Below are positions 3,944 to 15,507 of a DNA stretch of 48,155 nt, piece after piece. Made by a program: the position numbers and the translations under genes. The DNA lies in the NCBI GenBank assembly GCA_024710875.1, contig JANJTX010000186.1, forward strand, positions 1 through 48,155. Reading direction: 5' to 3'. Source of the DNA: Anaerolineales bacterium. GTDB lineage: Bacteria > Chloroflexota > Anaerolineae > Anaerolineales > UBA11579. The notes under the pieces are model-generated. The model made no database searches and was not told the origin of the DNA. It was given only the letters and a program-made list of their open reading frames with translations. Positions within the stretch are counted from its first letter, which is position 1. Every line of letters begins with the position of its first letter.

Positions 3944-3960
3944 CAAAGCAATTCTGCAAC

Positions 3961-3990
3961 AAAAAAACCCGCTGCGGCGGGTTTTTGTTT
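3961..3990. terminator. Bidirectional intrinsic terminator between convergent genes
   Basis: A stem AAAACCCGC / GCGGGTTTT with a TGCG loop (3964-3985) is flanked by an A-run on the left and a T-run on the right. It can therefore end transcription of the aldo/keto reductase (plus) and of the response regulator (minus). Confidence 0.9.
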
Positions 3991-3998
3991 TTAGCAAG

Positions 3999-5054
3999 TC
4001 AGGATTCTGGCGGGGCCAGACCCAATTGCAGGGCCTGGTCATAGGAAAGCGCATCGCCGCTCGCCACACTCGGGGAGGCAGCCTTCTGGCTGCTGCTCTC
4101 CCAGAAGGCATCTGCGTCGCTGGACTTGACCGCCGCCGGCTTGCTGAACAACGCATCCAGCTCCGCATCAATTGGCAGGTCTTCCGGCTCAGGTTCCGGC
4201 TCAGGTTTGGGCTCGGCGCTGGCGGGCGCAACCCCCAGTTTGGCGAGGTGCTGCAAGACTTCCTGGTCGGCTCCAAACAACCCCTTGGCAATTTTCGGCA
4301 ACTCGGCGGGTTCCAGACTCTGCAACACCGCCACCAGGGCGTAGCCATCGCCCACATGGCTTAAGGCCAGGCTGAAGGTCTCGCCATTAAGCGTGAACAG
4401 GCTTTCTGGCCGGGGCTTACCGAGGTAACGGGCGATCTTAAGACTGGCGATAAAGGTCGGCAAGAGAGTGGGCAGCACCTGGGCTTCAATCTCCGGGTTG
4501 GGTACGGTGCCAGCGCGTACCAGCGCCTGCCCGCGGTCACCCACCAGCAGCACGGCTTTGGCGTTCAGTTCAGTGCGCAGGTCAGCCACCAAATCTGCCA
4601 GGCTGCGCGCCTCGCGTTCTTCTTCCGCTTCCACCTCGGCCTGCTGGCGTTCCAGGTCCAGCTCGCTGGGCAGGATGGTACCGACCATGCCGAGGCAACG
4701 CTCAACGGCATCCAGAAAATCCGGTAAATCAATCGGCTTAAAGAAGAAACCATCCGCCCCGGCCTGTGCCACCTGCTGGCGGATTTTTTGTTCGGCAGCT
4801 CCGCTGATGAGGATGACCTTGGCAGCCGGGTTGCGGCCGCGCAGGCGCGTCATCAGGTCAAAGCCGGTCATACCCGGCAAACGCACATCCGAAATCAGCA
4901 AATCGACATCCCCGCGCGACAACTCCAGCCAGGCTTCTTCGCCGGAGAGGAACTCGCTGATGTGCAGTTCCTGTTCCAGACTTTCCAGGCCGGAGCGCAG
5001 TACCCGGGTTACTTCGCGCTGATCATCAACAATAACAATTTTTGAGGCTGCCAT
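3999..5054 (-). CDS. Response regulator with roadblock/LC7-like domain
   Basis: The 351-residue protein begins with a complete receiver domain (about 1-125). It has the acidic pair Asp10/Asp11, phospho-acceptor Asp56 (LLISDVRLPG), Ser84 and Lys106 (FFFKPIDLPD). A charged, probably helical linker (131-150) leads to a region at about 150-250 (from SLADLVADLRTELNAKAVLL) that looks like a roadblock/LC7 fold, as in regulators of small Ras-like GTPases. The C-terminus is low-complexity, with an EP-rich stretch near 281-292 followed by an acidic/serine-rich tail. There is no DNA-binding domain, so it likely signals through protein contacts. No histidine kinase or GTPase gene lies next to it. The receiver call is certain; the LC7 call is by fold pattern only. 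Confidence 0.88.
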   Translation of the reverse strand: MAASKIVIVDDQREVTRVLRSGLESLEQELHISEFLSGEEAWLELSRGDVDLLISDVRLPGMTGFDLMTRLRGRNPAAKVILISGAAEQKIRQQVAQAGADGFFFKPIDLPDFLDAVERCLGMVGTILPSELDLERQQAEVEAEEEREARSLADLVADLRTELNAKAVLLVGDRGQALVRAGTVPNPEIEAQVLPTLLPTFIASLKIARYLGKPRPESLFTLNGETFSLALSHVGDGYALVAVLQSLEPAELPKIAKGLFGADQEVLQHLAKLGVAPASAEPKPEPEPEPEDLPIDAELDALFSKPAAVKSSDADAFWESSSQKAASPSVASGDALSYDQALQLGLAPPES

Positions 5055-9827: not shown

Positions 9828-11762
9828 CTACCCGCCCTTGACCGCCTCCACAATCTCGGCCGCGATTTCATAACGGCTGAACTGCGGCATCAGATACACA
9901 CCCTGCGAAAACGGACGGATGGCCTCAATCAATTCCAGCGCAATGCGGATGCCCTCCTGGGGTGCGTCCTCGCCGGCGGCGGCCATGCGCGCCCGATACT
10001 CCTCCGGGATGTCAATTCCCGGCACCTCGTTGTGCAGAAAGGCGGCGTGCCGTTCGTTGTACAGCGGCAGGATGCCCGCCAGAATCGGCTTGTCCAGCGG
10101 GCCGTACTCGGCGGCGTACTGGTCCAGAAAGGCTTTGGCTTCAGCCGGGTCAAACACCGGCTGGGTCAGAAAGAAATCCGCCCCACTCGCCAGCTTGCGG
10201 CGCAGCACCTTGATTTCGCGTTCGGCATCCCGCATACTCAAGCTCAAGGCCGCCCCCACGAAGAACGAAGTCGGCTGCCCGATTTCCGTACCCGAATGGT
10301 CCAGCCCCATGTTAAAGCCCTGCTTGATGAGTTTCAGCAGGCCGGTCGGCACCAGGTCGTAATTGTCCATCGCTTCCGGGTAATCACCGATGTGGGTCGG
10401 GTCGCCCATCACCACAAACACATTGCGAATACCGATGGCATGTGCTGCCAGCAGGTCGCCCTGCACCCGCAGCAGGTTGCGGCCACGGGTCGGGAAGTGC
10501 AGCGTGGTTTCAATACCGATATTTTTCTGAATCAGGTCGCTGACCGCCCACGGGCTCATGCGCATGCGCGCCATCGGGCTATCGGCCACGTTGATTACAT
10601 CCGCCCCGGCATCCGCCAGCAGCCCGGCGCCGGCCTGCATCTTGTGGGTCGAGAGGCCGCGCGGCGGGCTCATTTCCACCGCCGCCACAAACACGCCCTG
10701 CGCCAGTTTTTGCGCCAATTGCGAGGGCGTATCCTCGGTAAGCTCCTCGCGCGCCGGTTCCGCCACCCGGATGCTCAAACCATTCTTGTAGTCCGACTCC
10801 GGCGTTTTTTCCAGGGCGGTCTGCATGGCACGGATATGCTCCGGCGTGGTGCCGCAGCAGCCGCCAATCAGCGCCACACCTGCATGCCGGAAGGCCAGGG
10901 CGTAATCGCCAAAGTACTCCGGCCCGGCCGGGTACATGATGCGCCCGCCGACCCGTTCCGGCCAGCCGGCGTTGGGCATCACCGAGTAGCGCGCCTCCGG
11001 TGCGACCCGCTGCATCTCTTTCACAATCCGCAAAATCTGGGCCGGCCCGCCAGAACAGTTCACGCCAATCACATCCGCCCCGGCTTCCCGTAATTTCAAC
11101 GCCACCTTGCTCGGTGAGTCACCCAACAGAGTACGGTCATCGCGGGTGAAGGTCATGCTGGCAATCACCGGCAGGGCGCACACGTCGCGGGCGGCATAGA
11201 TGGCTTCGCAGGCTTCGTACAAATCGGTAACGGTCTCAATGATGATGAGGTCGGCCCCGGCTTCGGCCAGCGCCCGGATCTGCTCGGCAAACGCCGCCCG
11301 GGCCTGCTCCAGTTGCACGCGGCCAAACGGCGCCAACCGCACCCCCAGCGGCCCGACATCCCCCGCCACCAGCACCGGTTTGTAGGCGGCTTCTACGGCG
11401 CGGCGCGCCAGCTCCACCCCGGCCCGGTTGATTTCGGTCACCTTATCGGCCAGGCCGTGGTCAGCCAGCTTAAAGCGGTTGGCCCCAAAAGTGTTGGTCA
11501 TGATGACCTGCGCCCCGGCCATGATGTAATCATGGTGAATCTGCGCCACCAGAGCCGGGTCCTTCAGGTTGAGCACATCAAAACAGGATTCAAACGAAGC
11601 CCCGCGCAGGTGCAGTTGCGTACCCATCGCCCCATCGAACAGCAGCGGGTTGGGGGAGGAATCCAGCAGTGCCAGAAAGTCCGAAACCGGTTCGCTCTGC
11701 ATCATCTTTTTTATCGTTTCCATGCTCACCTGATTCGGAAGAGGGGTTTTCTTTTTTGTCAT
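9828..11762 (-). CDS. Bifunctional homocysteine S-methyltransferase / methylenetetrahydrofolate reductase
   Basis: This is a 644-residue fusion of the YitJ type. Residues about 30-320 form a homocysteine methyltransferase barrel with the zinc cysteines in GVNCSGGP and IGGCCGTTPEH. Residues about 350-640 form a MetF-like flavoprotein starting FVAAVEMSPPRGLSTHKM, which reduces 5,10-methylene-THF to 5-methyl-THF. The second half supplies the methyl donor used by MetH, encoded upstream in the same direction. The start ATG at 11762 has a GGAGG at 6 nt; a second in-frame Met (residue 14) is possible but less well placed. The gene is separated from metH only by a 59-codon ORF, so it should share the SAM-I riboswitch control. 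Confidence 0.95.
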   Translation of the reverse strand: MTKKKTPLPNQVSMETIKKMMQSEPVSDFLALLDSSPNPLLFDGAMGTQLHLRGASFESCFDVLNLKDPALVAQIHHDYIMAGAQVIMTNTFGANRFKLADHGLADKVTEINRAGVELARRAVEAAYKPVLVAGDVGPLGVRLAPFGRVQLEQARAAFAEQIRALAEAGADLIIIETVTDLYEACEAIYAARDVCALPVIASMTFTRDDRTLLGDSPSKVALKLREAGADVIGVNCSGGPAQILRIVKEMQRVAPEARYSVMPNAGWPERVGGRIMYPAGPEYFGDYALAFRHAGVALIGGCCGTTPEHIRAMQTALEKTPESDYKNGLSIRVAEPAREELTEDTPSQLAQKLAQGVFVAAVEMSPPRGLSTHKMQAGAGLLADAGADVINVADSPMARMRMSPWAVSDLIQKNIGIETTLHFPTRGRNLLRVQGDLLAAHAIGIRNVFVVMGDPTHIGDYPEAMDNYDLVPTGLLKLIKQGFNMGLDHSGTEIGQPTSFFVGAALSLSMRDAEREIKVLRRKLASGADFFLTQPVFDPAEAKAFLDQYAAEYGPLDKPILAGILPLYNERHAAFLHNEVPGIDIPEEYRARMAAAGEDAPQEGIRIALELIEAIRPFSQGVYLMPQFSRYEIAAEIVEAVKGG

Positions 11763-11792
11763 TCTTGGCCTCCTGCAATTGGGCCGCCAGAA

Positions 11793-11972
11793 TCAGGCAT
11801 CGTCTTTTCCGGTTTCCGCGTTCGGCAGCAGCACCACGACCTTCACGCCCTTGGATGGAAGCGGCGGCACGGGCGGCAGGTGCTTTATCCACTCTGTGCC
11901 ATCCTTCGGCGCGGCTTTCAATTGTTCCGCAATCTCGATTTGTCGGGCGGTGTATTTCGGTTTTTCAGGCAT
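11793..11972 (-). CDS. Small unknown protein (59 residues) within the methionine operon
   Basis: An intact minus-strand frame starts at an ATG four bases after the metH stop and ends 30 nt before the next gene. The product starts MPEKPKYTARQIEIAEQLKA, has a proline-rich middle (HLPPVPPLPSKGVK), a short hydrophobic strand VKVVVLLP and an acidic tail ending GKDDA. It has no membrane segment or signal peptide. A weak AGGA lies about 14 nt upstream, and the start is probably coupled to metH termination. I recognise no family. It fills the whole gap between two genes of one SAM-controlled operon and its composition is protein-like, which supports it as a gene, but it remains unproven. Confidence 0.6.
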   Translation of the reverse strand: MPEKPKYTARQIEIAEQLKAAPKDGTEWIKHLPPVPPLPSKGVKVVVLLPNAETGKDDA

Positions 11973-11976
11973 GGTA

Positions 11977-14900
11977 TTACGGCTTTTCCTTCATCAACTG
12001 CTCGACCCGGCTCTCGCCCACGCTGTAATACTTGGCGTCCGGGTGATGCAACAGGATGGCAGCCGTGGATTGCTCCGGCACCAATTGATACGACTCGGTC
12101 AGCGTCAGGCCCAATTCCTGCTCGGCGGGCAGCAGGGCGAAGACCTTAGCATGGTCGTCCAGGTCCGGGATGGCCGGGTAGCCCCATGAGTAACGCTTGC
12201 CCTGCCCGGCCGCCAGCCCCAGCTCGCGCCGGATATGGCGGTGCAGGTACTCGGCCGTCGCTTCGGCGGTTTGCACCGCCAGGCCGTGGGTGTAATAGCC
12301 CTCGGAGTAGTCGCCCGCTTCCTGATAACGGTCAAACCGTTCGCTGGCCGCCTGCCCGACGGTCACAAGTTGCAAGGCGACCACATCCATCACGCCGCTT
12401 TCAACCGGCGCAAAGTAATCGGCCAAACACAACAACTCGCCGCTGTCCTGACGCGGGAAGCTGAAACGGGTGATTTCCTGCGGCCCGCTGCCATTGCCGA
12501 TGCTCTCCGGCGCGTACAGCAGCAGGTCATCGCCCAGCGCCTGGGCCGGCCAGTAGCCGTAGACCGCCTGCGGTTTCAGCCAGCCCTCGGCGACGGCCTG
12601 CTTTTTCATCGCCGCCAGCCGGGTTTCAAATTCCTTTTGCAGTTTCTCCCACTCCGCCCCCTGGGTGTTTTTGGCGCCCCACGAAAGCCGGAAGAGTTCA
12701 TTCTTGTACAGGCAGTCAAAGACCAGTTCGAGCGGCATATCCTTGACCACATGCACGCCCCAGCGCGGCGGGGTCGGGATGCGTTCCGCCACCTTGACCG
12801 CCGAGCGGCCACCGACCTGCGCCGTGCGGCGCGGTTTGGCTTCGCGCCCCTGTTCCTTTTCGGCCTTGCTGAAGAGCTCATCCATCAGTTCTTCGTTGCG
12901 CTGCGGGTCAATCAGGCGGTCCATCGTTTCCAGGCCCTCAAAGGCATCCTGGCAGTAGAACACGCCCGGGGCGTACGGAGTGCCATCCTCGGTGTAGAGG
13001 ATGCGCCAGCCAAAGCGGCGGTTAATGGCCGCCCCGCCTATCAGCAGCGGGAACTTCAGGCCGCGCCGCTGCAACTCGTTCACAATCAGCGGCATCTGCT
13101 TGCTGGTGCTCACCAGCAGGGCGCTCAAGCCAATCGCGGTCGCCCCCAGTTCCTGGGCCTGGGTGATGATGGTCTCGGCCGGCACCTGCTTGCCGAGGTC
13201 AAAGACCTCGTAGCCGTTGTTGACCAGAATCGTCTTAACCAGATTCTTGCCGATGTCATGCACATCGCCATACACCGTGGCCAGCACCACCTTGCCCTTG
13301 CTCACGCCCTCGACCTTTTCCAGATAGTTCTCCAGATGGCCGACGGTTTTCTTCATCGTTTCGGCGCTCTGCAACACAAACGGCAGAATCAGCTCGCCCG
13401 CCCCGAACTTATCGCCCACTTCCTTCATCGCCGGCAGCAACGTGCCGTTGAGGATGTTGACGGCGCTCTCATGGTCACTGGCGTGGTCCTTGCGGGCGAT
13501 GATTTCATCAATCGCGTCTTCCACGCCGTCCTTGTGGCGGTGGAGGATGCTCCAATGCAGGCGCTGTTCGGGGGTCATGCCCTCGGTCGGGTCGTCTCCG
13601 TCTTCTTCTTCGGTCGGAGCCAGGTTTTCGTAGAACTCAATCACATGTTGCAGGGCTTCCGGGCGGCGGTTGAAAATCAGGTCATCCATCAAAGCCCGTT
13701 CTTCGGCCGGGATTTCAGCATACGGCTTGACCTTGCTGGCATGCACAATCGCCATGTCCAGCCCGGCCTCCACGCAGTGGTGCAGCATCAGGCTGTTCAG
13801 CACCAGGCGGGCACGCGGCGAGAGGCCAAACGAGACGTTGCTCACGCCCAGCGAGGTCAGCACGCCCGGCAACTCGGCCTTCACCCGCCGGATGGCTTCT
13901 ATCGTATCCACGGCGCTGTTATTAAACTCCGGGTCGCCGGTGGAAAGCGGGAAGGTCAGTACGTCGTACACCAAATCCTGCGGCCGGAAGCCATATTCAT
14001 TCACGGCAATGTCATAGATGCGGCGGGCGATTTCGATTTTGCGCTCGACAGTCTTGGCCATGCCGTCTTCGTCAATCGTGAGGATGATGACGGCCGCGTT
14101 GTGCTGGCGCGCCAGTTGAAAGACCCGGTCCAGCTTCGGCCGCCCGGCCTCCAGATGGGTGGAGTTCAGCAAACAGCGCCCGGCCGCCAGCTTGAGGGCC
14201 ACTTCCATCACATCCGGCTCGGTGGTGTCAATCACCAGCGGGGCTTCAATGCCCATCGCCAGTTTCTTGACCACTTTGGCCATCAGGTAATCTTCATCGG
14301 CGCGCTCGGTCAGCGCCACGCTCACATCGAGGGCGTGCGCCCCGCCGCCAATCTGTTCGCGCGCCATCTCCAGAATGCCGTCAAAGTCTTCGGCCATCAG
14401 CAGGCGTTTGAACTGGCGGCTGCCGGTGGCGTTCAGCCGTTCGCCAATCAGGAACGGCGGCGGCACCTGCAACATGTCCATCGCCTGAATAGAAGACGAG
14501 AGGCGGGGTGTCTTTTGGGTCGGGCGCGGCGGGTGCGGGTGGTTGTGCACCTGCTCCACCAGCAGGCGCAGGTGTTCAGGGGTCGTGCCGCAGCAGCCGC
14601 CCACAATGCTGATGTTGTGTTTCTGGACGAATTCAAACATCGCCTCGGCGTAGGGCTGCGGCTCCAGCGGGTAGACCGCCTCGCCGTCTACGTTCAGCGG
14701 CAGGCCGGCATTTGGAATGGCCGATACCGGCAGGGTGGCATGCTCACCGAGGTAGGCCACCGGCTGGCGCATGTGTTCCGGGCCGGTCGAGCAGTTCAGG
14801 CCAATTACGTCAATCGGCAGGTCTTCCAGAATCGTCAGCGCCGCCGCGATGTCGGTACCCAGCAGCATCCGGCCGGTGGTGTCCAGCGTCACCTGGCACT

Positions 14901-15507
14901 GAATCGGCAGGCGTTCGCCGGTGTCCTCAAACGCCAGTTGGATGCCCTGAATGGCGGCCTTGACTTCGAGGATATCCTGCGAAGTTTCAATCAGCAGCAC
15001 ATCCGCCCCGCCCTGAATCAGGCCGGTAGCCTGCACCCGGAAGAGGCCGACGAGGTCGTCGTAGGTTACATCCGAGAGCGTCGGGTCATCGGCGCTCGGC
15101 AGCTTACCAGAGGGGCCAATCGAACCGGCCACAAAGCGCGGGTGGTCGGGGGTGCTGTATTCATCCGCCAGGCGGCGCGCCAGCGCCGCGGCCGTCTGGT
15201 TAATTTCAATCGTGCGCTCGCCCAAACCGTACTCGCCAAGCGTCAGCGGGTTGCTGCGGAAGGTGTCGGTTTCAATCACATCCACGCCCACTTCCAGGTA
15301 GGCGCGGTGGACTTTCTCGACCGCCTGCGGGTAGGAAATCACCAGATAATCCGGGCAGCCGTTGTACTGCTCGCCGCCGTAATGCTCGGCAGTCAGGTTC
15401 TGCTGCTGGAGCATGGTGCCCATGGCGCCGTCATAAACCAATACGCGCTGTTGCAGCGCATCCAGAAAAGCCCGGCGGGTGTACGTACGGTTGTTGGTCA
15501 AGTTCAT
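11977..15507 (-). CDS. metH: Cobalamin-dependent methionine synthase
   Basis: MetH transfers a methyl group from 5-methyl-THF through cobalamin to homocysteine. The 1176-residue protein carries all four modules: a homocysteine barrel (about 10-330, zinc cysteines in GLNCSTGPEH and VGGCCGTTPEH), a pterin-binding domain (about 355-620, IGERLNATGSRQFKRLL), a cobalamin cap and Rossmann domain (about 655-890, with the B12-ligand motif DVHDIGKNL), and the AdoMet reactivation domain (about 910-1170, RYSWGYPAIPD). Its length is close to the E. coli enzyme (about 1227). The start has AAAGGAG a few bases upstream. The leader contains a SAM-I riboswitch and terminator, so expression should rise when SAM is low. 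Confidence 0.98.
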   Translation of the reverse strand: MNLTNNRTYTRRAFLDALQQRVLVYDGAMGTMLQQQNLTAEHYGGEQYNGCPDYLVISYPQAVEKVHRAYLEVGVDVIETDTFRSNPLTLGEYGLGERTIEINQTAAALARRLADEYSTPDHPRFVAGSIGPSGKLPSADDPTLSDVTYDDLVGLFRVQATGLIQGGADVLLIETSQDILEVKAAIQGIQLAFEDTGERLPIQCQVTLDTTGRMLLGTDIAAALTILEDLPIDVIGLNCSTGPEHMRQPVAYLGEHATLPVSAIPNAGLPLNVDGEAVYPLEPQPYAEAMFEFVQKHNISIVGGCCGTTPEHLRLLVEQVHNHPHPPRPTQKTPRLSSSIQAMDMLQVPPPFLIGERLNATGSRQFKRLLMAEDFDGILEMAREQIGGGAHALDVSVALTERADEDYLMAKVVKKLAMGIEAPLVIDTTEPDVMEVALKLAAGRCLLNSTHLEAGRPKLDRVFQLARQHNAAVIILTIDEDGMAKTVERKIEIARRIYDIAVNEYGFRPQDLVYDVLTFPLSTGDPEFNNSAVDTIEAIRRVKAELPGVLTSLGVSNVSFGLSPRARLVLNSLMLHHCVEAGLDMAIVHASKVKPYAEIPAEERALMDDLIFNRRPEALQHVIEFYENLAPTEEEDGDDPTEGMTPEQRLHWSILHRHKDGVEDAIDEIIARKDHASDHESAVNILNGTLLPAMKEVGDKFGAGELILPFVLQSAETMKKTVGHLENYLEKVEGVSKGKVVLATVYGDVHDIGKNLVKTILVNNGYEVFDLGKQVPAETIITQAQELGATAIGLSALLVSTSKQMPLIVNELQRRGLKFPLLIGGAAINRRFGWRILYTEDGTPYAPGVFYCQDAFEGLETMDRLIDPQRNEELMDELFSKAEKEQGREAKPRRTAQVGGRSAVKVAERIPTPPRWGVHVVKDMPLELVFDCLYKNELFRLSWGAKNTQGAEWEKLQKEFETRLAAMKKQAVAEGWLKPQAVYGYWPAQALGDDLLLYAPESIGNGSGPQEITRFSFPRQDSGELLCLADYFAPVESGVMDVVALQLVTVGQAASERFDRYQEAGDYSEGYYTHGLAVQTAEATAEYLHRHIRRELGLAAGQGKRYSWGYPAIPDLDDHAKVFALLPAEQELGLTLTESYQLVPEQSTAAILLHHPDAKYYSVGESRVEQLMKEKP

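Follow-up and report, generated by a model that had tools for sequence, protein, structure and literature searches.

How could a two-component signal reach a small Ras-like GTPase through one bacterial protein? The question arises from a gene in a 48,155-nucleotide stretch of an Anaerolineales genome (assembly GCA_024710875.1, contig JANJTX010000186.1; hereafter the window), which an initial annotation made from the sequence had described as a receiver domain joined to a roadblock/LC7-like domain. We read its product as a response regulator with an MglB/MglC-type roadblock output that acts on an MglA-type GTPase, either as a GTPase-activating protein (GAP) or as a scaffold, and we give this reading a probability of about 0.6. 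An intact receiver, a roadblock domain, a conserved tail, co-occurrence with MglA-type GTPases and mglA gene clusters elsewhere in the class were all observed by computation, whereas GTPase binding, GAP or scaffold activity, control by phosphorylation and the identities of the kinase and the partner are what we infer.

Receiver and roadblock domains in one chain

The receiver retains the residues expected of a functional response regulator. Throughout a family alignment of 31 sequences, comprising 20 order-level rows and 11 others, D11, D56 and K106 are invariant (31/31), position 10 is D in 27 sequences and E in four, and position 84 is S or T in all 31. We take the roles of these residues, including that of Asp56 as phospho-acceptor, to be those known from the receiver family; the acidic pair, the phospho-Asp, the Ser/Thr and the Lys are then all present within a receiver fold. 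Since these residues are intact, phosphorylation of the window protein is likely.

The middle domain was recognized through its family. Even with a threshold of E ≤ 10, Pfam did not recognize Robl_LC7 in the window protein, placing it outside the Pfam cut-off, and matched Robl_LC7 in nine of the 31 family members at E ≤ 1 (best 2.2e-5). Searched against PDB sequences, a middle-domain profile built from all 31 rows matched MglB from Myxococcus xanthus (8.7e-18) and Thermus thermophilus (5e-8). Because 11 of these rows lie nearer to MglB than the window protein does, we repeated the search with the 20 order-level rows against 177,635 PDB sequences, where M. xanthus MglB was the sole match at E ≤ 10 (2.3e-5). 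At the sequence level, it is the family profile that reveals the kinship of the middle domain with MglB. AlphaFold2 modelling of the domain alone (predicted local distance difference test score, pLDDT, 91; predicted template-modelling score, pTM, 0.85) yielded the order helix–strand–strand–helix–strand–strand–strand–helix that characterizes the roadblock fold, and the matches of this model ranked 1–30 by Foldseek in the PDB were all MglB chains (best E-value 9.5e-9). Receiver matches dominate the Foldseek search with the full-length model, hence the separate modelling of the LC7 domain; the full-length model has a pTM of 0.44, so the relative placement of its domains is not readable from it.

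The missing Pfam match had raised the alternative that the middle domain is a profilin-type GAF- or longin-like fold rather than a true roadblock, and single family members do give weak matches elsewhere, including Fuz_longin_3 and MAPKK1_Int. We rejected this candidate and regard such a misassignment as highly improbable, given that the order-level profile matches no PDB family but MglB and that MglB chains fill Foldseek ranks 1–30. The fold of residues 150–260, on which the initial annotation had staked its proposal, is thus predicted to be LC7/MglB-like, and the joined receiver and roadblock/LC7-like domains that it had described are confirmed by the PF00072 match, the MglB profile, the predicted fold and full-length relatives.

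Those relatives were found by tblastn in three Anaerolineae/Chloroflexi metagenome-assembled genomes, with 66%, 64% and 41% identity along almost the full length. We sampled 101 genomes of the order and 298 of the class. Matches at E ≤ 1e-20 occur in 28 of the class genomes, the window's own genome counted, and the LC7 profile matches 61 of the order genomes. In all 61, receiver and LC7 lie in the same open frame; the fusion is therefore not an assembly artefact. In a tree of LC7 domains, the 20 order-level rows form one clade (100/100) on a stem branch of 1.98 changes per column, next to a clade that holds most of the class-level receiver–LC7 genes. By this tree, the class-level genes are family-level relatives of the window protein and not strict orthologues.

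MglA-type GTPases and their link to the fusion

The initial annotation had placed the partners elsewhere in the genome, and a small GTPase among them was the second point on which it depended. The window's own genome (2.53 Mb, 188 contigs, 82.6% complete) encodes an MglA-like small GTPase of 174 residues on contig C57 (C57:1080–1601) and a stand-alone LC7 protein on contig C108, both outside the contig of the window, as anticipated. The GTPase motifs read GPFNSGKT, GTPGQ and NKQD, and the same motif classes recur in 30/30 GTPase loci read. In Pfam the protein matches ATP_bind_1 (1.5e-19), Ras (8.3e-10) and Arf (7.6e-8), and it matches solved MglA and Rab proteins weakly. Relatives of this GTPase, hereafter called P0002-type, were found at E ≤ 1e-12 in 146/298 class genomes. 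Two further Arf/Roc matches in the genome, in a 612-residue frame at C57:27939 and a 453-residue frame at C108:39672, were put aside as partners; judging by frame length, they are presumably translation-factor and EngA-like GTPases.

Across 30 loci (L086–L115), the top matches of the P0002-type GTPase share 76–84% identity across families of the class, a striking conservation that contrasts with the very fast evolution of the order-level LC7 domain. The stand-alone Robl_LC7 gene on C108 (locus L001, 1423–1872) adjoins a gene for a V4R-domain protein (771–1406).

The C57 GTPase gene sits behind a gene for a DUF4388 protein, a relative of which adjoins the GTPase in 16/16 loci (the own genome and 15 others). 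In 15 of these 16 loci, a receiver protein of about 300 residues is encoded within about 6 kb of the GTPase. Its representative in the own genome has a GGDEF match, with the signature reading GGNNF, and is followed downstream by a 1999-residue protein containing seven GAF stretches, PAS, HisKA and HATPase_c. This histidine kinase, encoded within the GTPase cluster, is at most a candidate input to the fusion. The cluster as a whole (locus L082, 229–11960) encodes the DUF4388 protein, the Ras-like GTPase, alpha/beta hydrolase, hexapeptide-repeat and Shikimate_DH-like proteins, the receiver–GGDEF protein and the kinase; at another locus (L179), a V4R protein joins it.

Presence of the fusion and of the GTPase are correlated. 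In the class sample, every one of the 28 fusion genomes (E ≤ 1e-20) also has the P0002-type GTPase, against 118 of the 270 others. Within the order, 58 genomes have both, 3 the fusion only, 20 the GTPase only and 20 neither (Fisher 1.6e-7); counted by genus (53), the corresponding figures are 33/0/11/9 (3.8e-5). When canonical MglA is also counted, they become 60/1/20/20 for the order genomes, with a GTPase in 60 of the 61 fusion genomes versus 20 of the 40 others. Two of the three fusion genomes that lack a P0002-type GTPase (G326 and G347) carry canonical MglA, and the third (G375) is 80% complete. Canonical MglA was detected in 13 order genomes, all of which have the fusion.

Gene neighbourhoods in the class provide a second line of evidence. 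We read 24 class-level loci, in stretches of 3.2 to 19.9 kb of which some are cut by contig ends; 21 contained a receiver–LC7 gene, and L207, L211 and L212, in which no receiver was detected, were excluded. Canonical mglA is present in the fetched stretch of five of the 21. At L199, receiver–LC7, mglA and LC7 genes are consecutive on one strand, with 33 bases between the first two, and at L198 mglA, which has a TGA inside its frame, lies 17 bases from the receiver–LC7 gene. L081 contains a second receiver–LC7 gene directly 5' of an mglA, while at L210 receiver–LC7, LC7 and mglA genes overlap, placing mglA one gene away from the fusion. At L078, mglA is about 4.5 kb from the fusion, with receiver–DUF4388–LC7, HisKA and another LC7 protein encoded between or beside them. 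Under the coupling rule of four or fewer genes from a small GTPase gene (PMC4316618), the fusion is coupled at four of the 21 class-level loci (L081, L198, L199 and L210) and at 0/19 order loci. In genome G254, mglA lies within about 20 bases downstream of a gene for a receiver–LC7–HATPase_c protein, with an LC7 frame next in line. The two-component input to a small-GTPase switch that had been proposed for the window gene thus finds support, as a functional link, in the MglA-type co-occurrence and in these class-level clusters.

Other domain arrangements were seen at the same time. The three-domain receiver–DUF4388–Robl_LC7 protein of L078 (6092–7216) is clustered with canonical mglA, and at L056 (1414–2829) LC7 is flanked on one side by a receiver and on the other by a kinase-type ATPase domain (HATPase_c), with mglA directly after.

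Several results weigh against a GTPase-directed role of the window protein. No GTPase gene lies near the window gene or in any of the 19 order-level loci examined. The genomes are related and the co-occurrence p-values ignore kinship; at family level (13/0/1/1 of 15, p 0.13) co-occurrence is not significant, and four families account for the 18 genomes that lack fusion, GTPase and stand-alone Robl_LC7 alike. Of the 78 order genomes that encode the P0002-type GTPase, 20 lack the fusion, which is therefore dispensable for the GTPase. Stand-alone Robl_LC7 tracks the GTPase more tightly in the order (76/5/2/18, p 1.5e-13), and the main GAP may therefore be the stand-alone protein. Given the very long branch of the order clade, the partner or the activity may have changed. 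Finally, phosphorylation control of a GTPase is something we infer for the product of what is, in the window, an orphan gene.

An alternative reading would make LC7 a mere dimerizing or docking output of an ordinary single response regulator, its GTPase link lost in the order and the co-occurrence a product of shared ancestry. The great length of the stem below the order clade, the orphan gene with its unrelated neighbours (GlmU and oligopeptide ATP-binding cassette (ABC) genes in family f2) and the weak family-level statistics would all agree with such a loss. We nevertheless consider it unlikely, because fusion, GTPase and Robl_LC7 are jointly absent from the 18 genomes of four families and because two of the three exceptions to the co-occurrence have canonical MglA instead.

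As for these neighbours, family f2 has a conserved neighbourhood of oligopeptide ABC transporter, SBP_bac_5, GlmU, cytidine deaminase and RecO genes, where the fusion lies mostly between the gene for the oligopeptide ABC solute-binding protein and glmU (L062–L077). They were dropped as partners, since they are not conserved around the window gene and include no GTPase. Within the window, two adjoining genes on the (-) strand (9828–15507; 644 and 1176 residues), which may encode MetF- and MetH-type proteins, have same-order relatives near the fusion in L002 and L003.

The conserved tail and a possible mechanism

The initial annotation had also noted an EP-rich spacer and an acidic tail. The spacer is present (Table 1), and so is the tail, although the latter is better described as conserved and helical, marked by a Phe-Trp pair and a motif at its end, than as acidic. 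FW occurs within the C-terminal 150 residues of the fusions of 52 of the 61 order genomes. Mean column identity of the terminal motif (0.68) is similar to that of the receiver (0.70), compared with 0.55 for LC7. The strict motif pattern is found in 54 of the 61 order fusions; among the seven that deviate, visual inspection shows near variants in six, while the remaining one (G313) is truncated where its contig ends. Within the last 50 residues, the pattern occurs in 35/50 LC7-profile proteins and in 0/2349 other open reading frames (ORFs) at those loci (2399 ORFs in all, many of the 2349 not being genes), as well as in 2/47,980 shuffled tails. Because the pattern was composed after the sequences had been seen, these statistics show specificity, not discovery. 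A search of the own genome with the tail peptide matched only the window gene itself. Judged by its sequence context, the gene seems to form a separate transcription unit.

Table 1. Features of the receiver–roadblock/LC7 gene and its 3' flank, in window coordinates
Feature	Position	Strand	Basis
Terminator-like hairpin between this gene and a convergent aldo/keto-reductase-like gene	3960..3992		Seen by reading the sequence
Receiver–roadblock/LC7–tail gene, 351 aa, ATG start, TGA stop (stop codon within coordinates)	3999..5054	-	ORF and translation
Conserved tail, residues 296-351, predicted to form three short helices	4002..4169	-	AlphaFold2 model and regional conservation
Terminal motif LSYDQALQLGLAP, residues 336-348	4011..4049	-	19/19 order loci; 16/22 class-level receiver–LC7 genes, leaving out a regular-expression match at L200 located inside the LC7 domain
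Phe317-Trp318 of the tail	4101..4106	-	Both in 20/20 order-level rows of the alignment
Pro/Glu-rich linker KPEPEPEPEDLP, residues 274-295	4170..4235	-	Sequence; pLDDT about 50-60
Roadblock/LC7 (MglB-like) domain, residues 152-273	4236..4601	-	MglB profile match, AlphaFold2 (pLDDT 91, pTM 0.85), Foldseek
Receiver–LC7 linker with helix, residues 122-151	4602..4691	-	Helix 131-148 in model, low to medium pLDDT
Receiver domain, residues 4-121	4692..5045	-	Pfam PF00072 (Response_reg) match over residues 6-117, E 5.8e-25; predicted five-strand CheY-like pattern
Codon of presumed phospho-acceptor Asp56	4887..4889	-	D in 31/31 aligned sequences

Because MglB-like and RomR-like parts stand in one chain, we read the protein as a phospho-switched roadblock regulator. 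Two LC7 domains would most likely dimerize by way of the roadblock fold and, so paired, bind an MglA-type small GTPase, for which the product of C57:1080–1601 is the candidate in the own genome. Once bound, the pair could speed GTP hydrolysis as a GAP or could scaffold the true GAP, like M. xanthus MglC. Phosphorylation of Asp56 would alter receiver pairing or the contact between receiver and LC7, and with it the amount of GTPase that is held or switched off. The tail that follows the flexible Pro/Glu linker may be a helix used for docking, as the C-terminal helix of MglB and RomR-C suggest by analogy.

A different division of labour is conceivable, in which the fusion, as a scaffold and not a GAP, would bind stand-alone LC7 proteins instead of the GTPase, by contacts from roadblock to roadblock and in the manner of MglC, and its receiver would gate assembly of the complex. 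Stand-alone Robl_LC7 is indeed found in all 61 fusion genomes of the order (61/0/20/20), and the conserved Phe-Trp of the fusion tail recalls M. xanthus RomR, which binds the roadblock protein MglC, not MglB, through a C-terminal helix in which Trp394 is required (PMC12719032). The fusion gene, however, stands directly beside mglA in three class loci, and we treat this arrangement as possible though somewhat doubtful.

The preferred reading of a roadblock regulator acting on an MglA-type GTPase can be extended, tentatively and as one piece, to a polarity regulator in one chain (receiver, roadblock GAP or scaffold, and RomR-C-like tail) that would give a two-component kinase direct control of a Ras-like switch. 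The ancestral protein would have been encoded with canonical mglA; in the order the regulator would have been re-targeted to a different, near-invariant GTPase, whose gene clusters with those for a DUF4388 (PATAN-like) protein and a multi-GAF histidine kinase, and would play a role outside known Mgl-driven motility.

In M. xanthus, a two-component pathway reaches MglA via several separate proteins. If our reading is correct, the link between receiver and roadblock is covalent here, and two purified proteins would suffice to ask how a phosphate on a receiver alters the state of a Ras-like GTPase. Given the number of class genomes with the P0002-type GTPase (146/298), it would further indicate Ras-like signalling in the Chloroflexota, and in this little-studied bacterial group a sensor kinase may exert direct control over a Ras-like switch.

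Comparison with known systems

MglB from M. xanthus and T. thermophilus shares the roadblock fold and sequence kinship with the LC7 domain of the window protein. It stands alone and lacks a receiver, whereas the window protein has one, its GAP activity being putative. In M. xanthus MglB, a C-terminal helix beyond the core binds MglA and aids exchange (PMC6785124). RomR, for its part, consists of a receiver, an unstructured Pro-rich linker and a conserved Glu-rich helical C-terminus (PMC3441718). It has no roadblock domain, whereas the window protein carries a folded LC7 in the same chain and so departs from the linker-only plan of RomR; the likeness seen between the two tails is one of layout.

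The conservons (Cvn) of Actinobacteria likewise bring a kinase, an LC7 protein and a Ras-like GTPase together in one system (PMC4316618); they are not known to contain a response regulator, and their parts are separate genes of one cluster. In archaea, the thaumarchaeal NitrOD3 is a two-component output domain that has been called Roadblock/LC7-related; the available text of its account mentions no GTPase link (PMC5847659), and we set it beside the window LC7 by description only.

The nearest precedent in architecture is that of Wuichet and Sogaard-Andersen (2014; PMC4316618), who found, by BLASTP with M. xanthus MglB as query, five sequences that carry Response_reg at the N-terminus and resemble MglB in the C-terminal region, and in which Pfam confirms Response_reg and Robl_LC7. 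These are the same two domains in one chain as in the window protein, and the accessible text of that account gives no function, tail motif or mglA linkage for them; the receiver–LC7 architecture is thus already published, as an uncharacterized one. Our literature search, with subscription papers mostly outside its scope, found no functional study of a Response_reg–Robl_LC7 fusion and nothing on its tail or on Chloroflexota mglA clusters; apart from the 2014 survey, it yielded no publication on this system. To the published architecture, the present analysis adds a conserved tail with RomR-like layout, the clusters with mglA and a divergent order-level branch.
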